A stretch of DNA of 64,000 nt from Sphaerochaeta halotolerans (GTDB lineage: Bacteria > Spirochaetota > Spirochaetia > Sphaerochaetales > Sphaerochaetaceae), in the NCBI RefSeq assembly GCF_003429665.1, contig NZ_QUWK01000004.1, positions 1-64,000 on the forward strand. Direction: 5' to 3'. A program made the position numbers and the translations under genes. Shown piece after piece: positions 32,901 to 41,616 of the stretch. Numbering within the stretch: position 1 is the stretch's first letter; the number at the start of each line of letters is the position of its first letter. A model generated the notes under the pieces. That model had not been told where the DNA came from. It did not search any database and was given only the letters and a program-made list of their open reading frames with translations.

Positions 32901-32909
32901 GAGATGCAG

Positions 32910-35468
32910 ATGAGTCAGCAGGAAGAATATGCACAGTCAACAAGTCCCTTTGATGCTGGAGAAGAGGGCATTTCCATAGCAGAGTTGCTTCACATATTTC
33001 ACAAGCGATTGCGTTGGTTCTTTGTAGGCTTTATCCTAGTTGTAGCACTAGCCCTCGGTTATTTGCAGATTGCTATACCTCAATACGAGTCAGAAGTTTC
33101 TGTTTTGGTTGATCCTATCCAGACATCTTCCTCTTTCGAGTCCTTGATGGATATGTCAGCCTCGAGCACGAAGATTGCTACAGAAGTTGAGTTGATTACC
33201 AGTCGGAGCAACATTGATTATGCACTCAGTACTTTGGATTTGTCACAGTACAAGAATGCAGATGGATTTGATTATCGTGATAAACTCGTATTGGGCAATC
33301 TGAAAGAGAGAATTGCTGTAACTACGGTGAAGGATACCAACATTGTAAGAATCAAGATCACCGATGAAAACCCTGTCTTCGCACGTGATTTTGCCAATGC
33401 CCTCGCTTCAAGTTATGATACGCTGTTAACCGGTATTGCTAAGAACTCAAAAACCGCACAACGTGAATTTATTGAGTCTCAGATTCCTATCAACGACCGT
33501 GCTCTCTCCGCAGCAGGCGATGCCTTGGGTGACTTCAGGGAAAATAGTGACATCATTCAACTCACCGACAAGAGTTCTATGTTGGTTGAACAGATTTCCT
33601 ACTATACCCAGCGTCTGGAACCGTTGAAACTGCAGTTGCGAGAAGCGATGGTGTTTCTTGATTCATACAATGAAGGCCTCACCCAGGCTGGTGTTACAGG
33701 TGTGCTATCCCTTGATGATGTACGCAGGGATCCTGTAATTGCTGAAAAATTGAATGACCTTGCTGCCTGGAAAACAGAATTGACGATGTATGAGTCCTTG
33801 GGCAATTCTTCAGCACCCCAGACTCAGGTCTCCATGCCAATGGATGCTTCCTCTCGTACCTATGTGATTAGCAGTGCCATGAACCAATTGAACAAGGATC
33901 TGCTAGACCGCGTTTCTCTGCTTACCCGATCCTACGGGAATGAAAGCTATACCCAGGCCATTGTACAAGCGCTCACCACCGAAGTGGGCATACAGGTCTT
34001 GGAAGAGCGGGGAGAGGTCTTTATCTCCGAGCTTTCCCAACTACCTGTCTTGGAGCGGCGTCTCTCAGAGTTGCAACGGGATGTGCAAATCTATGAAGCC
34101 ATCGGTTTGAAACTCCGGGAGATGTTGGAAGAAGTCAAGCTGGTCGAAGCGTCGGTCAGCGGTAATGTAACCGTGGTTGATGAGGCTATCCTTCCTCGCA
34201 ATCCTGTCAGTCCAAATAGAGTATTGATTTTGGCTGTTGCGTTATTGTTGGGTGCAGCCTTTGGCCTCTTGCTCACCCTGGCCATTGAGGCCTTGGATGT
34301 ATCCATCCAGACAGAGCAACAAATTCAGAAGATAGTGGGCAAGGATGTGCCTCTCTTGGGATGGATTCCTATGATGAAGGTCTCAAACCTGGATTTGTAT
34401 CCTACCCTTATTGTGTATAATGATCCGCTTTCCTTTGAATCAGAACGGTTCAAGCTGGTTGCGAACATGCTATACAACCGTAGTGAAAAACATGTTTTTT
34501 CCATCACATCCTGTTCCATGGCTGAAGGAAAGAGTACCATCATTGGGAATATTGCCGTTGCCTTGGCTCAGATGGGTAGCAAGGTGCTCATCATTGATGG
34601 AGACCTTCGTCTTCCCAGCATGGAACGGTATTTCCACCTGAAACACCGCGAAGTGGGATTGGTGGATTATGTTACCAAGAATGCCACTCTTGAAGCGTGC
34701 ATCCTGAAACCAATTGAAAAGGTTCCCGGCCTGCATCTGTTGCCTCCAGGAAATGCTCCCTTGGTTCATGCTGGCATTTTTTCCAACCCGCGGTATACTC
34801 GCCTGATAAGCTATCTGGAGAGTGTGTATGACTTTGTCATTATTGACGCCCCTCCGTTGGACTCGGCGAGTGAGTTGCTCTCCATCAGCAAACATGTCGA
34901 CGGATTGATTATCACTGTCCGTGCCGGTATTACCAGCAAGGGCTCTCTCTTTGATTTGATCAGCAGCTTGAGAACGGCAAATGTTCCCATCAGTGGTGTT
35001 GTGTTCAACGGTGTGGTTCCTGGTTCGGTTGGAACCGGGTACCGATATGGTTACGGCTATGGGTACGGCAAGGGATACGGGTATAGCTCCTATGCGTCAC
35101 GATACAGCGCCATGGGCAGTAGTGGAACACTGAAAAAACGTCGCAAGCACCAAGTACGTAAACGTTCCAATGGGTGGTATCGTAAAATGTACAAGCGTGA
35201 TGTGAAGAATCGTGGTAAGCTTTCGCAAGAGCAGTTTGATGCGGTGCTTGCCTTCGGTCCTGATTCTCCTTACGCTACCATTGCAGATTGGGTGGAAGCT
35301 GAACGTGAAAATGGGAAGACAAAACCCAATGAGACGAGGCAGACGGAGGTTCCCTCTGCAAAACAAGAGGATCCTCGTCCCTCTTCAGACCCAGTAGAGC
35401 AGGACCTTGCAAGTCTTCGGGATATAGAAAATGATGCTGATGCAGCTGGTAAGAAAAGAGAGGACTAA
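32910..35468 (+). CDS. polysaccharide copolymerase with fused BY-type tyrosine autokinase (Wzc-like)
   Basis: An 852-residue inner-membrane protein that controls polysaccharide chain length. A Wzz domain with one helix near residue 35 (FFVGFILVVALALGYLQIA) is followed by a periplasmic coiled-coil-rich part and a second helix near 435 (VLILAVALLLGAAFGLLLTLAI). The cytoplasmic kinase has Walker A SMAEGKSTIIGNIA near 535, Walker A' VLIIDGDLRLPS near 555 and Walker B FVIIDAPP near 645. The tail has a tyrosine ladder (YRYGYGYGYGKGYGYSSY), the usual autophosphorylation cluster, then a basic and an acidic stretch. ATG 32910 is preferred since AGGAG lies 6 nt upstream; ATG 32904 touches it. Confidence 0.9.
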   Translation: MSQQEEYAQSTSPFDAGEEGISIAELLHIFHKRLRWFFVGFILVVALALGYLQIAIPQYESEVSVLVDPIQTSSSFESLMDMSASSTKIATEVELITSRSNIDYALSTLDLSQYKNADGFDYRDKLVLGNLKERIAVTTVKDTNIVRIKITDENPVFARDFANALASSYDTLLTGIAKNSKTAQREFIESQIPINDRALSAAGDALGDFRENSDIIQLTDKSSMLVEQISYYTQRLEPLKLQLREAMVFLDSYNEGLTQAGVTGVLSLDDVRRDPVIAEKLNDLAAWKTELTMYESLGNSSAPQTQVSMPMDASSRTYVISSAMNQLNKDLLDRVSLLTRSYGNESYTQAIVQALTTEVGIQVLEERGEVFISELSQLPVLERRLSELQRDVQIYEAIGLKLREMLEEVKLVEASVSGNVTVVDEAILPRNPVSPNRVLILAVALLLGAAFGLLLTLAIEALDVSIQTEQQIQKIVGKDVPLLGWIPMMKVSNLDLYPTLIVYNDPLSFESERFKLVANMLYNRSEKHVFSITSCSMAEGKSTIIGNIAVALAQMGSKVLIIDGDLRLPSMERYFHLKHREVGLVDYVTKNATLEACILKPIEKVPGLHLLPPGNAPLVHAGIFSNPRYTRLISYLESVYDFVIIDAPPLDSASELLSISKHVDGLIITVRAGITSKGSLFDLISSLRTANVPISGVVFNGVVPGSVGTGYRYGYGYGYGKGYGYSSYASRYSAMGSSGTLKKRRKHQVRKRSNGWYRKMYKRDVKNRGKLSQEQFDAVLAFGPDSPYATIADWVEAERENGKTKPNETRQTEVPSAKQEDPRPSSDPVEQDLASLRDIENDADAAGKKRED

Positions 35469-35471
35469 CCC

Positions 35472-35500
35472 TAGACAGAGCGTCAACTCTCTGCTATGGT
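35472..35500 (+). promoter_or_regulatory. predicted promoter of the pyrimidine operon
   Basis: TAGACA at 35472-35477, 17 nt, TATGGT at 35495-35500. Transcription would start near 35507 and give a leader of about 135 nt before pyrBI. Confidence 0.6.
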
Positions 35501-35527
35501 TTTCAGAAGAAAAGAAGGAGGGATTCC

Positions 35528-35611
35528 ATGGGCAAGAAACGAGACAGTATAGTGTGTAACACTCTGGAATGGGAATTCCTTCAATATAGTGCAGTGAAGA
35601 GTCGGTCGTAG
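35528..35611 (+). CDS. pyr operon leader peptide
   Basis: A 27-codon open frame with its own strong Shine-Dalgarno (GGAGGG, 35517-35522, 5 nt before ATG). It starts MGKKRDSIV and ends AVKSRS. Its TAG stop (35609-35611) lies in the loop of the terminator hairpin at 35597-35622. A ribosome that reaches the stop would cover the terminator stem. In enterobacteria the pyrBI leader works this way: slow transcription at low UTP lets the ribosome keep up and block termination. A small hairpin, AGTGT/ACACT (35551-35563), and another, GGAAT/ATTCC with a GGGA loop (35566-35578), precede the terminator and could act as pause sites. The coding frame is seen; the mechanism is inferred. Confidence 0.7.
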   Translation: MGKKRDSIVCNTLEWEFLQYSAVKSRS

Positions 35612-35628
35612 GGCCGGCTTTTTTTTTT
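35597..35628 (+). terminator. attenuator terminator upstream of pyrBI
   Basis: GTCGGTC (35601-35607) pairs with GGCCGGC (35612-35618), extended by AAGA with the first T residues, followed by ten T residues (35619-35628). It ends 12 nt before the pyrBI ATG, so it must be read through for the operon to be expressed. The stem contains G-U pairs. Confidence 0.85.
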
Positions 35629-35640
35629 GAAGGAGTCAAG

Positions 35641-37242
35641 ATGGAAAAACAGAATGTATTTGCAGGACGATCGTTATGTGTTATTGAGGATTTTTCCAGA
35701 GAAGAGCGTATGTATCTCTTCAACCAAGTGCGTCATCTGAAACAGGCAATGGAACAGAGGGATCAAACCAAGCTCCATCCATTCAGGATTGATGATAGGG
35801 ATTTCGGTATCTATGAAGTGTTCCTGGAAGACAGCACCAGAACCAAAGAGTCCTTCAAGAATGCTGCAAATTTCCACCATGCTAAAGTCTCTGAGCTCAA
35901 CAGTGACAGTTCTTCCTTCAATAAAGGTGAAAGTTATGCAGATACCTTCAATACACTCAGTGGGTATGAAAACACCATTTTCATCATACGAAGCAAGGTC
36001 GAGGGTGTAACCAGGCATCTGGAGGAGGCCTGTGCCGCCTATGCAGAACGCAATACATTGTATCGCAAACCCGTGTTCATCAATGCCGGGGATGGAAAGC
36101 ATGAACATCCTACCCAGGAGTTGCTTGATGAGTTCACCTTTCTGGAGGACAACCAATGGAGCAATAAGGCGTTGCATCTTGCCTTGGTCGGTGATCTCTT
36201 CCACGGCCGGACCGTGCATTCAAAAGCTGATGGCTTGAAAATCTTCAAACAGGTTAAGGTGGATTTGATAGCTCCAATAGAGCTGGCAATGCCGGAAGTC
36301 TACGTCAACCGCATGGTGGAAAATGGCTATCAGGTTCGTATCTTCGCTTCCATTGAAGAGTACCTCGAGCAACCTGATGTGGCATCCCAGTGGTACTTCA
36401 CCCGACCTCAGTTGGAGCGTATGGGAGACAGAATTCTCCAACGACAGGAAGAACTTCGGCGCTCCATCACATTTCGTGAAGAATTCTTGCCCAAGATCAA
36501 GGAGGGAACTACCTTCTACCACCCACTTCCACGGCACAAACTAACTCCTACCATCCCAACCTTCCTTGATGACACTCCGCTCAATGGATGGGAACGACAA
36601 TCGATCAACGGTATGTATGTAAGAATTGTCCTGTTGTCACTGCTTGCAGGAAAGATTGGAAGTGATTTTATTCCAGCTGAAAAGAAAGCAGTCCAAGAGA
36701 GTGAGGATTATATTACCGAGGTAGATCTGCAGTCACGCATAGTGAAGGAGAAACGGGTGAGTGAAGGAGTTCAACCAATCCGTAATGGTCTGGTTATAGA
36801 CCACATTCTCAAGGGTGATCACCCGAGCGAAATCAGGAGACATATGAGACTGATCAGCAGTGTGCTCGGCCTTGATGCATACAAAGGTGGGGAGTGGGTA
36901 AGTACAAGTGGTCAGGAAGGCGTCTACAAAGGCATCATTTTCCGACCAGGGGAATATAGTCTTGATCGAAAGCAACTCAAACGGTTGAGTGCAGTGGCAC
37001 CGGGTTGTACCTTGAACCTGATCAAGGATGGAAGGGTAATGAACAAATTCCGCTTGCATCTTCCCCCCCGGATCTACAACTTTGAGGATCTTGCTTGCAC
37101 CAATGAAGCATGCATTTCCCATCCCGGCCAGGGTGAGGGAGTTCCTGCGATGTTCCATCGAACAAAAGACAATACCTTTGTCTGTGCATACTGCAACAAG
37201 ACACACACCTTCAAGGAAATCTGGAAGCGTGGAAATAAATAA
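35641..37242 (+). CDS. pyrBI: aspartate carbamoyltransferase, catalytic and regulatory chains fused
   Basis: Forms carbamoyl-aspartate, the committed step of pyrimidine synthesis. Residues about 1-340 are the catalytic chain: EDSTRTKESFKNAA near 61 (carbamoyl-phosphate loop), NAGDGKHEHPTQELLDEF near 145 and HPLPRHK near 294. From about 375 a regulatory chain follows: NGLVIDHILKG, an allosteric domain, and a zinc domain with C-x4-C (CTNEAC) and C-x2-C (CAYC). Separate genes are the rule in enterobacteria; fused PyrBI is known from Thermotoga and some others. Start ATG 35641 with AAGGAG 5 nt upstream. It is first in the operon, after the attenuator. Confidence 0.94.
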   Translation: MEKQNVFAGRSLCVIEDFSREERMYLFNQVRHLKQAMEQRDQTKLHPFRIDDRDFGIYEVFLEDSTRTKESFKNAANFHHAKVSELNSDSSSFNKGESYADTFNTLSGYENTIFIIRSKVEGVTRHLEEACAAYAERNTLYRKPVFINAGDGKHEHPTQELLDEFTFLEDNQWSNKALHLALVGDLFHGRTVHSKADGLKIFKQVKVDLIAPIELAMPEVYVNRMVENGYQVRIFASIEEYLEQPDVASQWYFTRPQLERMGDRILQRQEELRRSITFREEFLPKIKEGTTFYHPLPRHKLTPTIPTFLDDTPLNGWERQSINGMYVRIVLLSLLAGKIGSDFIPAEKKAVQESEDYITEVDLQSRIVKEKRVSEGVQPIRNGLVIDHILKGDHPSEIRRHMRLISSVLGLDAYKGGEWVSTSGQEGVYKGIIFRPGEYSLDRKQLKRLSAVAPGCTLNLIKDGRVMNKFRLHLPPRIYNFEDLACTNEACISHPGQGEGVPAMFHRTKDNTFVCAYCNKTHTFKEIWKRGNK

Positions 37243-37259
37243 GGTACACTGGAGAGACC

Positions 37260-37958
37260 ATGAAACATATTGAAGCTATAACAAACCATTATGGGCCCAT
37301 TTTAGCAAAGAAAGCCTTGGAACTTGGGGCAATCCGACTCCAAGTACAGGATCCATTCACTTGGGCGAGCGGCTACCGCATGCCAATCTACAATGACAAT
37401 AGGAGGCTGCTTTCCGAGAGTGGTGCAAGGAAGCTGGTCAGTGAAGCATTTGCCGCCATGCTGGAAAGTCTTGATTATGATCCAGATACCATTGCAGGAA
37501 CAGCTACTGCCGGCATTCCTCATGCAACCACACTTGCTGACAGACTTGCGAAGCCAATGAGTTACGTTCGAAGTTCTGGCAAGGACCATGGCCTAGGACA
37601 GCAGATAGAGGGCCTCGGGTTGGGAGGAACCTATGAAGGTGCAAAGGTGCTCCTTATCGAGGATCTGATCTCCACAGGTGGGTCTTCCATCAAAGCAGTG
37701 CAGGCGATTACCAAGGCCCAAGGTGTGTGTCCCTATACCTTTGCAATCTTCACCTATGGATTTGCCGCCGCACAGGAAGCCTTTGCCGCCTTGGACCCAG
37801 CTTGCAAGGCTTTTACCATTCTAGATTATGATGTAATGGTTGCAAGCGCCAAGGAAACAGGTTATGTGAACAGTGAGGAGGCCAGGCTGCTTACATTATG
37901 GAGGGAAGACCCCTTCGGCTGGGGTGAAAAACAGGGATTTCCCAAAGTAGACCGGTAA
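37260..37958 (+). CDS. pyrE: orotate phosphoribosyltransferase
   Basis: Joins orotate with PRPP to give OMP. The 232 residues match bacterial PyrE. Seen: FTWASGYRMPIYNDNRRL near residue 34, GTATAGIPHATTLADRL near 81, SYVRSSGKDHGLGQQIEG near 101 with conserved lysine and histidine, and the PRPP loop VLLIEDLISTGGSSI near 130. It lies 17 bp after pyrBI and 13 bp before pyrF. An ATG start at 37260 with GGAGAG-like bases upstream is consistent. Confidence 0.95.
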   Translation: MKHIEAITNHYGPILAKKALELGAIRLQVQDPFTWASGYRMPIYNDNRRLLSESGARKLVSEAFAAMLESLDYDPDTIAGTATAGIPHATTLADRLAKPMSYVRSSGKDHGLGQQIEGLGLGGTYEGAKVLLIEDLISTGGSSIKAVQAITKAQGVCPYTFAIFTYGFAAAQEAFAALDPACKAFTILDYDVMVASAKETGYVNSEEARLLTLWREDPFGWGEKQGFPKVDR

Positions 37959-37971
37959 GGAGAGGGTAAGC

Positions 37972-38850
37972 GTGAGGTATCAAACATTATTGAAAGAGAG
38001 TGCAAAGAATACTGGGAATGTTGCTTGTATGGGATTGGATCCAATTCTGGAATCCCTTCCTGTCTCCAGCGGGAACCTCCGCACTGACCTGAACAGTTTC
38101 TTTCAGCAGTTGTTTCGGAGAATGAATCTTGCCGGTTTGATTCCAGCAGCTTTCAAGCCGAACCTTGGTTACTACCAGAGTCTTGACCGACCACGTGATG
38201 AAGATTTTTCCGGGAGTGCTGCTCTTGCCGATGTTTTGGATATGCTGGAGAGTTTTTTTCCAGGCATTCCTGTCATTCTTGACAGCAAGCGAGGAGATAT
38301 TGCCCGAAGCAGCATGAACTACGCCAGGGAAGCGTTTGAAGCATGGCAAGTCGATGCCGTGACTGTAGCTCCCTATATGGGAAGTGACTCGGTAGAGCCT
38401 TTCCTCAGGTTCCCTGAAAAAGGCGCATACCTGCTCAATCGTACCAGCAACCCTGGTGGAAAGGATCTGCAAAATCTGCTTGTTGTGAAGGAAGGCGAGA
38501 ACAGTCGTCCACTTTACCTCGAGGTGGCTAGCCAAATTGCAGCCTACAACCAGAAGTCGGGAAGTGTAGGGGCCGTGGTTGGAGCCACCAATCTGCAGGA
38601 GTTGGAAGCTATTGCCGCTTTCTATCACGATCAGGCTGTTCCCTTGCTTATCCCTGGTGTCGGAAACCAAGGGGGCTCAGCTGGGGAAGTTATGGCAATC
38701 CTGAAAAGAGCAGGGTATCCGGTAGAACTTGCCAGAATAAACAGCAGCAGCGCGTTGACCCATCCCTGGAAAAACAAAGGGGTTCCCGAAGATTGGCTTG
38801 ATCTCTGCATGAAAAATATTCGCTTTCTGCTTGAGGAGACTTCCCTATGA
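37972..38850 (+). CDS. pyrF: orotidine 5'-phosphate decarboxylase (type 2)
   Basis: Converts OMP to UMP. The 292 residues fit the longer type 2 (PyrF/UMPS-like) group. FKPNLGYYQ near residue 61, VILDSKRGDIARSSMNYA near 101 (the catalytic D-x-K-x2-D), VDAVTVAPYMGSDSVEPF near 127 and IPGVGNQGG near 224 are visible. The start is GTG at 37972, with GGAGAGG about 6 nt upstream. The stop overlaps the next start by 4 bp (ATGA), so it is coupled to pyrDK. Confidence 0.94.
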   Translation: MRYQTLLKESAKNTGNVACMGLDPILESLPVSSGNLRTDLNSFFQQLFRRMNLAGLIPAAFKPNLGYYQSLDRPRDEDFSGSAALADVLDMLESFFPGIPVILDSKRGDIARSSMNYAREAFEAWQVDAVTVAPYMGSDSVEPFLRFPEKGAYLLNRTSNPGGKDLQNLLVVKEGENSRPLYLEVASQIAAYNQKSGSVGAVVGATNLQELEAIAAFYHDQAVPLLIPGVGNQGGSAGEVMAILKRAGYPVELARINSSSALTHPWKNKGVPEDWLDLCMKNIRFLLEETSL

Positions 38851-40577
38851 AGGATGTGATGGAACTACTGGTAAACCGACACCTTAATCCAGAAGCCCCT
38901 GTCCTCTTGACAACAGTGAGTGGTGTTGCATCCACAAAACCTCGGTTGATCACCTACTTTGACAGCAAGGTATCTGCTATCAGCATTATTACAACCAAGA
39001 GCTTCCAAGTGGAAGTGAATCCAGGGAACCGTGAACCGGTGATTTGTGAGACCTCAGTAGGAAACTTTGGGAACTCAGTTGGTTTGCGCAACCCTGGAAT
39101 GGAACAAGCGCTGTATGAGATTGGAAAACTTAGGAAAGAGCACACCTTCTCCAGCTACCTCAATGTCTCCCTCTCTGCAAATAGCGTAGAAGATTTCATT
39201 ACCTTGGTGAAAGCTTTTGATGAGGTGGCCGATCTGGTGGAGTTGAACTTCTCCTGTCCCCACGCATCGGCGGGATATGGTGCATCAATCGGCTGTGACC
39301 AGAACATTGCCGCAGAATATGTACGATTGATCAAGGAAGCAACCAAGGAGTGTAAAGCCCCCTTGTTTGTAAAACTCACTCCAAATGTTGATGACATCGG
39401 TGTGATAGCAAAAGCGGTGATGGATGGTGGTGCCGATGGTCTGGTTGCAATCAATACGGTTGGCCCGATTGTCCATAAAGATCCAGGTTCAGGGTTTCCT
39501 ATATTGCAGAACAGGCTTGGGGGAAAGGGTGGAAGCAGCGGGCACCATATCTATGAGCGCGCGCTTTCAGCCATCAAGGAGATCCGGGAAGCCTGTGGGG
39601 AGGCCATTCCTCTCATCGGAATGGGAGGCGTGAGCACCGGTGCAGAAGCTGCAGCCTTGATAGCCTCTGGAGCTGATGCAGTCGGTATTGGTTCAGCCCT
39701 TGGTACTGTGGACCAAAAGGTATGGCCTGAATACCTCTCTTCTGTGAAGCGTGAGGCCGAAGCAATAATACGCGGTGAGGATTCCGTCAAAGAGCAATCT
39801 ACCACCTACATTATCAAGCATCGACAGATGGCGTATGAGAAACATCAGGTAATCAAGCGTGAGCAGTACGGCAAGGATACCTGTATCATTACCCTGGATG
39901 GAACGCTTGACTGCAAGGCAGGACAATTTGCGTTTCTATGGATTCCTTCCATCGGGGAAAAACCGTTTTCCGTTGCTCATAACAAACCACTGACGTTCAT
40001 TGTCAAGAACCGTGGGCCATTTTCAGCTGATCTTTGTGGTTTGCAGGTGGGTGATGAGGTCTTTGTACGGGGCCTCTATGGTGCGCAGCTGAACAATGAG
40101 ATAACTAAGAAAGCGCTCTTGTTGGGTGGAGGTACCGGGGTGGCCGTCCTTCCCAGTCTAGCTGAACAATTGAGAAGGCAAGGAACGGAAATGGACATCC
40201 TTGTCGGAACCAGCGAAACCGTGGAAGGAAAAGCCCTGCTGGAAGAGGAGCTCTTTACTTATGGAGCATTTACCTGTATTGCTGATGAGGGGAGGCCAGG
40301 TAGGGTATTGGACCTTCTGGACAGCATTTCACTGGATGATGACCAAGCCTGCTACCTTGTAGGTCCTGAGGTATTCATGGCCATCGCCTGCCGCAAATTG
40401 TTGGGTAGGGGAATTAAGGAACAAAATCTATACCTGTCGATGGAAAGGACCACGCTCTGTGGAATAGGAATGTGTGGGGAGTGTGCCTGTGGTGACCGCC
40501 TCACCTGCAGATGGGGCACATTCATGCAGTACGACTATTTGGCGAAAGAGGCGCCTGAATTGATTGCCTATGATTGA
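38847..40577 (+). CDS. pyrDK: dihydroorotate dehydrogenase B, catalytic and electron-transfer subunits fused
   Basis: A 576-residue single-chain form of the NAD-linked dihydroorotate dehydrogenase. Residues 1-310 are PyrD class 1B: NPGNREPVICETSVGNFGNS, the active-site region VELNFSCPHASAG near 130 with the catalytic cysteine, FVKLTPNVDDI near 175 and LIGMGGVSTGAEAAALIASGADAVGIG near 255. Residues from about 330 are PyrK: an FAD region (GQFAFLWIP, KPFSVAHN), LLLGGGTGVAVLPSLAEQL near 425 and a 2Fe-2S cluster motif, C-x4-C-x2-C then C (CGIGMCGEC, RLTC), near 535. These are usually two genes. There is no internal stop or start site at the junction. Coupled to pyrF and overlapping pyrC by 8 bp. 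Confidence 0.92.
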   Translation: MKDVMELLVNRHLNPEAPVLLTTVSGVASTKPRLITYFDSKVSAISIITTKSFQVEVNPGNREPVICETSVGNFGNSVGLRNPGMEQALYEIGKLRKEHTFSSYLNVSLSANSVEDFITLVKAFDEVADLVELNFSCPHASAGYGASIGCDQNIAAEYVRLIKEATKECKAPLFVKLTPNVDDIGVIAKAVMDGGADGLVAINTVGPIVHKDPGSGFPILQNRLGGKGGSSGHHIYERALSAIKEIREACGEAIPLIGMGGVSTGAEAAALIASGADAVGIGSALGTVDQKVWPEYLSSVKREAEAIIRGEDSVKEQSTTYIIKHRQMAYEKHQVIKREQYGKDTCIITLDGTLDCKAGQFAFLWIPSIGEKPFSVAHNKPLTFIVKNRGPFSADLCGLQVGDEVFVRGLYGAQLNNEITKKALLLGGGTGVAVLPSLAEQLRRQGTEMDILVGTSETVEGKALLEEELFTYGAFTCIADEGRPGRVLDLLDSISLDDDQACYLVGPEVFMAIACRKLLGRGIKEQNLYLSMERTTLCGIGMCGECACGDRLTCRWGTFMQYDYLAKEAPELIAYD

Positions 40578-41616
40578 CCCTCATGTACATCTCCGTGATT
40601 GGAAAGAAAAAGAGAAGGAAACCCTAGCCCATGGGTTGGCTGTTGCTCTCTCATGTGGAATTGATGAGGTATTCGACATGCCGAATACCCAACCAACCCT
40701 AACAGAACGAAATACTGTTCTGAAACGGCTCAAGGATGCTGAACAGTGTGGTATTGGCGTCCACTATCATCTCTATGCTGGGCTGACATCTTCTCCCGAG
40801 CAGATTGGAGCAATGGTCTCTCTTGTCCAGGAACTTTTTCCACGAGTAGTAGGACTCAAGATGTTTGCCTCTCACTCGACCGGCAATATGGGACTTGTGC
40901 AGGAAAAGGAACAAGCGTTGGTGTATCGTACCTTGAGCGATTGTGGATATGAAGGAGTGGTTGCCCTACACTGTGAAAAAGAATCCCTGTTGCATCCTGA
41001 GCTGTATAATACCACTGACTTTTCCAGCCATAGCCTTGCAAGGCCTGTGTGTGCAGAGGTGAAAAGTGTCTCAGATCAGCTCCGTATTGCCCAGGAGGAA
41101 GGGTTCAAGGGACACCTGCACTTCTGCCACCTTAGTAGTATTGAGGCTCTCCATGAAATTGAGAAAGCCCGGTCTCAGGGGGTTCGTGTCAGCTGTGCGG
41201 TCACTCCTCATCATGCGCTCCTTTCCAGTGATGACGCAAAAGACCGTTCGCTGTATGCAAAGATGAATCCTCCGCTTCGCAGTGAGACTGAACGTAGTGC
41301 TCTCTTTGCTGCTTTGTTGGGAGGAAGAATTGACTGGATAGAGAGCGATCATGCTCCGCATACACTTCACGATAAAGAAGCAGGGGCAAGTGGCATTCCC
41401 GGCTTCAGTGGAATCCTGCTTTTGGTCAAGGAATTGCTTGAACAAGGCGCAACAGCACCCTTGTTGCAGAAGCTGTTGGGCAGGAGGGTGCAAGAGGTGT
41501 TTCACCTCCCCTGTCGAGAAATCTTCATTCCAGCGTATGATGACCTGGAATCACTCTCTACCAAAAGTGCAGACGAGTATCCCTGGGACAGTTACCGGAA
41601 CTTGCGATTGCGTTAA
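40570..41616 (+). CDS. pyrC: dihydroorotase
   Basis: Cyclises carbamoyl-aspartate to dihydroorotate. The 348 residues belong to the amidohydrolase family: MIDPHVHLRDW at the N-terminus has the HxH zinc ligands; AGLTSSPEQ near residue 74, VALHCEKES near 138, GHLHFCHLSS near 180 and ESDHAPHTLHDK near 258 supply the other histidines and the catalytic aspartate. The start is ATG at 40570, beginning exactly at the conserved MIDPHVH; a TTG at 40564 is less likely. Last gene of the pyrimidine operon; carAB is not in the window. Confidence 0.93.
   Translation: MIDPHVHLRDWKEKEKETLAHGLAVALSCGIDEVFDMPNTQPTLTERNTVLKRLKDAEQCGIGVHYHLYAGLTSSPEQIGAMVSLVQELFPRVVGLKMFASHSTGNMGLVQEKEQALVYRTLSDCGYEGVVALHCEKESLLHPELYNTTDFSSHSLARPVCAEVKSVSDQLRIAQEEGFKGHLHFCHLSSIEALHEIEKARSQGVRVSCAVTPHHALLSSDDAKDRSLYAKMNPPLRSETERSALFAALLGGRIDWIESDHAPHTLHDKEAGASGIPGFSGILLLVKELLEQGATAPLLQKLLGRRVQEVFHLPCREIFIPAYDDLESLSTKSADEYPWDSYRNLRLR

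Follow-up and report, generated by a model that had tools for sequence, protein, structure and literature searches.

The pyrimidine biosynthesis genes of Sphaerochaeta halotolerans were analyzed in a window of 64,000 nucleotides (positions 1 to 64,000 of contig NZ_QUWK01000004.1), to which all coordinates refer. Five ORFs in the order pyrBI-pyrE-pyrF-pyrDK-pyrC form an operon, and its control elements are located within 170 bp 5′ of pyrBI. The following features were identified:

35472–35500, + strand: promoter with the −35-like hexamer TAGACA, a 17-nt spacer and TATGGT with a TG extension (from the sequence; spacing conserved in congeners)
35517–35527, + strand: leader Shine-Dalgarno (SD) region GGAGGGAUUCC, 5′ arm of a predicted SD-sequestering helix
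35528–35611, + strand: leader ORF of 27 codons, from the ATG at 35528 to the TAG at 35609–35611, with the stop codon in the terminator loop
35572–35582, + strand: anti-SD tract GGAAUUCCUUC, 3′ arm of the SD-sequestering helix (predicted fold; covariation by swap test)
35596–35628, + strand: intrinsic terminator with a 12-pair stem, the loop GTAG and T10 (from the sequence; conserved before pyrBI across families)
35629–35635, + strand: pyrBI Shine-Dalgarno sequence GAAGGAG (from the sequence)
35641–37242, + strand: pyrBI, fused catalytic and regulatory chains of aspartate carbamoyltransferase (NF009916, 820.7 bits, cut-off 800; PF01948 and PF02748 present)
37260–37958, + strand: pyrE, orotate phosphoribosyltransferase (TIGR00336, 109.1 bits, cut-off 106.8)
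37972–38850, + strand: pyrF, orotidine-5′-phosphate decarboxylase (TIGR02127, over the cut-off)
38847–40577, + strand: pyrD-pyrK fusion, dihydroorotate dehydrogenase and electron-transfer part (PF01180; NF000796 at residues 342–566, below the cut-off)
40564–41616, + strand: pyrC-like dihydroorotase (best match TIGR00857, 217.8 bits, below the cut-off)

The −35-like hexamer was read at 35472–35477 and the extended −10 element as TGC-TATGGT, with its hexamer at 35495–35500. The core of the strong leader SD, GGAGG, is found at 35517–35521, and the ORF behind it encodes the peptide MGKKRDSIVCNTLEWEFLQYSAVKSRS. In the terminator, 35596–35607 pairs with 35612–35623; the loop GTAG (35608–35611) includes the leader stop codon TAG, and the T10 tract covers 35619–35628. 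A first-pass annotation of this DNA had described the promoter, the leader ORF with its SD, the U10 terminator and the stop codon in the loop, and direct reading found all of their coordinates correct. The five-gene pyr operon that it had proposed was borne out by profile search, which assigned the five ORFs to pyr families; pyrD/K and pyrC matched the expected families across the greater part of their length, though under some of the curated cut-offs. The gene upstream of the operon (32904–35468) encodes a polysaccharide protein of the Wzz/tyrosine-kinase-like type whose tail is glycine- and tyrosine-rich.

The promoter pattern T[AG]GACA-17-(TG)N-TANNNT was scored by script in 20 of 23 Sphaerochaeta congeners. 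For two of these 20 the script gave an earlier false site; inspection by eye shows the motif in both of them as well as in the other three congeners.

A strict scan of the 64-kb window for a second strong intrinsic terminator comparable to that before pyrBI found none on either strand, which suggests that such terminators are rare in the S. halotolerans genome. The pyrBI upstream regions of about 100 genomes of the class and of 80 named loci were compared. In these two overlapping sets, 159 of 187 spirochaete loci (E. coli control excluded) have a terminator directly 5′ of pyrBI, and they come from about a dozen families. Loci without it belong mostly to distant families, to split pyrB genes, to part of family f11 or to truncated contigs; in the distant families the pyrBI identity is at most about 54% and the gene is often located behind another one. 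In f34 and in some members of f17 and f11, the terminator is present without a convincing leader ORF.

Leader ORF and terminator are both kept in all Sphaerochaeta congeners with an intact upstream region. The first-pass annotation had named the loss of either one in close relatives as evidence against an attenuator; such a loss was looked for and both elements were found to be retained. The comparison of leaders across relatives that it had recommended revealed that ORF, stop position and terminator are maintained and that the peptide drifts. Judged from these sequences, the attenuator appears to be a class-wide element and not an oddity of one genome.

For the analysis of leader translation, a qualifying ORF was defined by an ATG or GTG start, an SD score of at least 5 and a frame open to the hairpin. 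Such an ORF was found in 30 of 56 non-redundant leaders, compared to 2.0 expected from dinucleotide shuffling; redundancy and kinship among the leaders were reduced by a k-mer filter only. The frame that begins at the start codon with the strongest SD runs without a stop codon to at most 15 nt from the hairpin in 59 of 59 non-redundant leaders (expectation from shuffling, 19.5), whereas the other two frames do so in 10 and 19 of them. These 59 are the leaders in which a start could be picked; the other 19 of the total of 78 were left out because no start codon within range had a strong enough SD. At the hairpin, 44 of the 78 non-redundant pyr leaders have a leader-type ORF, compared to 1 of 31 control terminators taken from related genomes and from the rest of the window.

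The stop codon is located no more than 15 nt before the hairpin in 31 of the 59 leaders, inside the hairpin in 15 and beyond it in 13. In E. coli, termination is suppressed if the distance of the stop codon from the terminator is at most a few to about 27 nt, and this dependence is steep for pyrBI (PMC4824070). The spirochaete stop positions fall in this range, where an E. coli ribosome blocks a terminator.

In four clades, the synonymous fraction differed little from that expected under neutrality (0.21 observed and 0.25 expected at random, 0.17 and 0.20, 0.14 and 0.13, 0.31 and 0.21), so that purifying selection on the leader peptide was not detected in these small samples. A frame that is kept around a drifting peptide would agree with a leader in which the act of translation alone counts. 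The leaders of f22 and f26 (L088–L091, L036), with weak SDs, have the peptide stretch KKPD/KKPE in common, unlike the drifting peptides found elsewhere; this stretch was possibly selected or transferred. Many Sphaerochaeta leaders (35528–35548 in the window), as well as L033 of another family, start with a basic run such as RKRYR or KKR.

The 133-nt leader folds better than its dinucleotide shuffles (z −2.9, 1/200). The first-pass annotation had placed two small hairpins in this region. Both can be drawn (AGTGTGTAACACT and GGAATGGGAATTCC), whereas the fold computed for the leader of the window is different and consists of an 11-bp helix between 35517–35527 and 35572–35582, together with the terminator. 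According to folding prediction, the helix appears once RNA polymerase (RNAP) has transcribed to about 35580. It would sequester the leader SD.

In a MAFFT alignment of all Sphaerochaeta leaders the SD arms were out of register, and pair counting was therefore replaced by a swap test. The average energy of the duplex between SD and tract was −15.6 kcal/mol, compared to −12.7 kcal/mol for swapped partners (59 non-redundant leaders; z −7.5, 0 of 20,000 permutations). This effect was also found within Sphaerochaeta alone (9 leaders, z −3.4, p = 0.0005) and persisted when Sphaerochaeta was removed (50 leaders). The pairing was stronger than in shuffles that preserve purines and pyrimidines (t −8.1). 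Purine-pyrimidine composition as its cause is ruled out by these class-preserving shuffles and by the partner swapping. The mean pairing probability of the SD was 0.70, compared to 0.43 in shuffled leaders. The pairing between SD and tract covaries across the spirochaete leaders. Apart from the terminator, the helix, which was absent from the first-pass annotation, has the strongest support of the RNA structures in the leader. It ends before the terminator with a median gap of 13 nt and is predicted to coexist with it. Since the helix lies upstream and does not compete with the terminator, its simplest role would be to close the leader to late ribosomes. In this model the SD pairing probably serves the first ribosome as a gate or loading window. 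The covarying SD pairing is a new part, missing from the textbook model.

In the published pyrBI mechanism, RNAP outruns the ribosome and terminates when UTP is abundant, whereas low UTP leads to pausing (PMC10135430). The T content at positions −30 to −1 of the hairpin was found to be 0.42 in the pyr leaders and 0.28 in the control terminators (p = 3e-8), which fits UTP-sensitive pausing. Most of this signal is contributed by genera outside Sphaerochaeta, and sister genera carry a U-rich tract. The leader of the window is U-poor (19 of 89 nt, 21%); the 40 nt that begin at 35508 contain 3 U and the 49 nt after them contain 16. Of the pyrBI-type logic assumed in the first-pass annotation, the design of leader peptide and terminator in a spirochaete pyr operon holds, but the leader of the window contains neither a U-run nor a U-rich pause tract. 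Since the Sphaerochaeta leaders are U-poor, a UTP sensor is not evident in that genus. UTP is likely to be the signal for the clade, a reading that is not extended to the leader of the window.

The best reading of the locus is a ribosome-gated transcription attenuator with the mode of action of E. coli pyrBI, and we regard this as probable on the basis of the comparative sequence data. ORF, stop position, terminator and the covarying SD pairing are maintained while the peptide drifts. RNAP would start near 35507, expose the ribosome site of the leader and then transcribe the 27-codon ORF. A ribosome that loads at once and follows closely would reach the stop codon inside the hairpin, or, in relatives, a stop just before or past it, and would block the hairpin, so that RNAP reads through into pyrBI-E-F-DK-C. 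If RNAP is ahead, 35572–35582 would pair with the SD at 35517–35527 and close the leader to ribosomes; the terminator would then form and the operon would be off. Since the proximity of the ribosome would decide whether the hairpin forms, the speed of RNAP relative to the arrival of the ribosome would be the switch. A shortage of pyrimidine nucleotides, most likely of UTP, would switch the operon on by slowing RNAP over the 3′ part of the leader, which contains U.

An extension of this attenuator is proposed only tentatively, namely that the pyrimidine-rich tract that slows RNAP doubles as the anti-SD of the leader and acts as a gate for ribosome loading. The time that RNAP needs to make the tract would then set the time available for loading, and one element would therefore be both UTP sensor and shut-off.

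The attenuator could also be ribosome-gated and respond to translation itself, i.e., to charged arginine or other tRNAs, to ribosome supply or to growth rate. In Sphaerochaeta, where the leaders are U-poor and many of them start with M-x-(K/R)-(K/R)-R, the basic codons near the start (RKRYR, KKR) would serve as the sensor; in addition, arginine shares carbamoyl phosphate with the pyrimidine pathway. However, no amino acid is strongly enriched compared to shuffled leaders (the highest values are 3.6 standard units for D and 1.9 for R), several congeners have no basic run, and the leader lacks the alternative helix that amino-acid attenuators require to compete with the terminator. A signal from translation itself is therefore considered unlikely. 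An attenuator specific for one amino acid was rejected, since there is no control-codon run and no competing antiterminator and the peptide varies across relatives.

It is very unlikely that terminator formation is decided by a ligand of the leader RNA, be it a PyrR-like protein or a small molecule as in a riboswitch, which would make the ORF incidental. The leader does contain a terminator, as in PyrR-controlled operons, but a profile search for PyrR in the 99.99% complete S. halotolerans genome gave a best match of 21 bits (cut-off 138), and the gene is regarded as absent. The leader has no Rfam match at the gathering threshold or at the permissive one (E up to 1), and the absence of a PyrR-binding loop reported by the first-pass annotation agrees with this. 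Moreover, the ORF is far more open than by chance, and no conserved aptamer-like block was seen besides the SD helix and the terminator. PyrR control and the known RNA families were thus rejected for lack of a PyrR gene and of an Rfam match. Hardly credible is a terminator that merely insulates pyr from the upstream polysaccharide gene, which ends at 35468, with an ORF that boosts pyrB translation by re-initiation, as leader ORFs close to genes can do (PMC4833913), because the stop positions follow the hairpin and not the pyrB start and the conserved promoter upstream of the terminator means that the operon's own transcripts must pass it.

PyrR is present in two other families of the class. 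In one of these, a distant family (G043, C153:28924-30535), the PyrR gene is located directly beside pyrB, and pyr control therefore differs between families of the class. Among the carA loci that could be read at the offset expected, none showed a leader like that of pyrBI. Upstream of carA, several Sphaerochaeta congeners (L197, L198, L192–L195) carry three or four TGTTGCATAA-like repeats about 30 nt apart, which look like operator boxes.

As far as the searchable papers show, the known cases of pyrBI attenuation by coupled translation are from enteric bacteria. The literature searched contained no account of a spirochaete attenuator of this type; subscription papers were outside this search and the novelty is therefore provisional. 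An attenuator of this kind across the class would show that a deep-branching phylum makes regulatory use of transcription-translation coupling, and it would offer repressor-free pyrimidine control where PyrR is absent. The leaders form a natural series, from U-rich to U-poor and with the stop codon before, in or after the hairpin, by which UTP pausing and ribosome gating could be separated. The covarying SD pairing would add a testable part to the textbook attenuator model.

Compared to known systems, the spirochaete leader shares the terminator in a pyr leader with the Bacillus-type PyrR attenuators, but there is neither a PyrR gene nor a match to a PyrR-binding RNA, and the leader is translated instead. 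With the trp and his leader-peptide attenuators it has coupled leader translation and termination in common; it differs from them in having no control-codon run and no antiterminator that competes with the terminator. A leader ribosome site that is closed by a downstream segment has also been described for the E. coli trp leader.

The arrangement is most similar to E. coli pyrBI with its leader pyrL, which likewise has a promoter, a leader ORF with a strong SD and a terminator just before pyrB, and in which a close ribosome prevents termination. The U-rich tract before the E. coli hairpin is common to the sister spirochaete genera, whereas the leader of the window is U-poor, unlike both. The leader ORF of the window has 27 codons and its stop in the terminator loop, whereas E. 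coli pyrL has 44 codons and runs through the terminator. In Sphaerochaeta, pyrB and pyrI are fused and followed by pyrE, pyrF, pyrDK and pyrC in one operon, which is different from E. coli. The SD of E. coli K-12 pyrL is predicted to pair with its own U-rich tract with a probability of 0.999; this is a single sequence, and its pairing does not beat shuffles (z −1.3). A loading gate of the kind proposed here may exist unnoticed in E. coli pyrBI, too.
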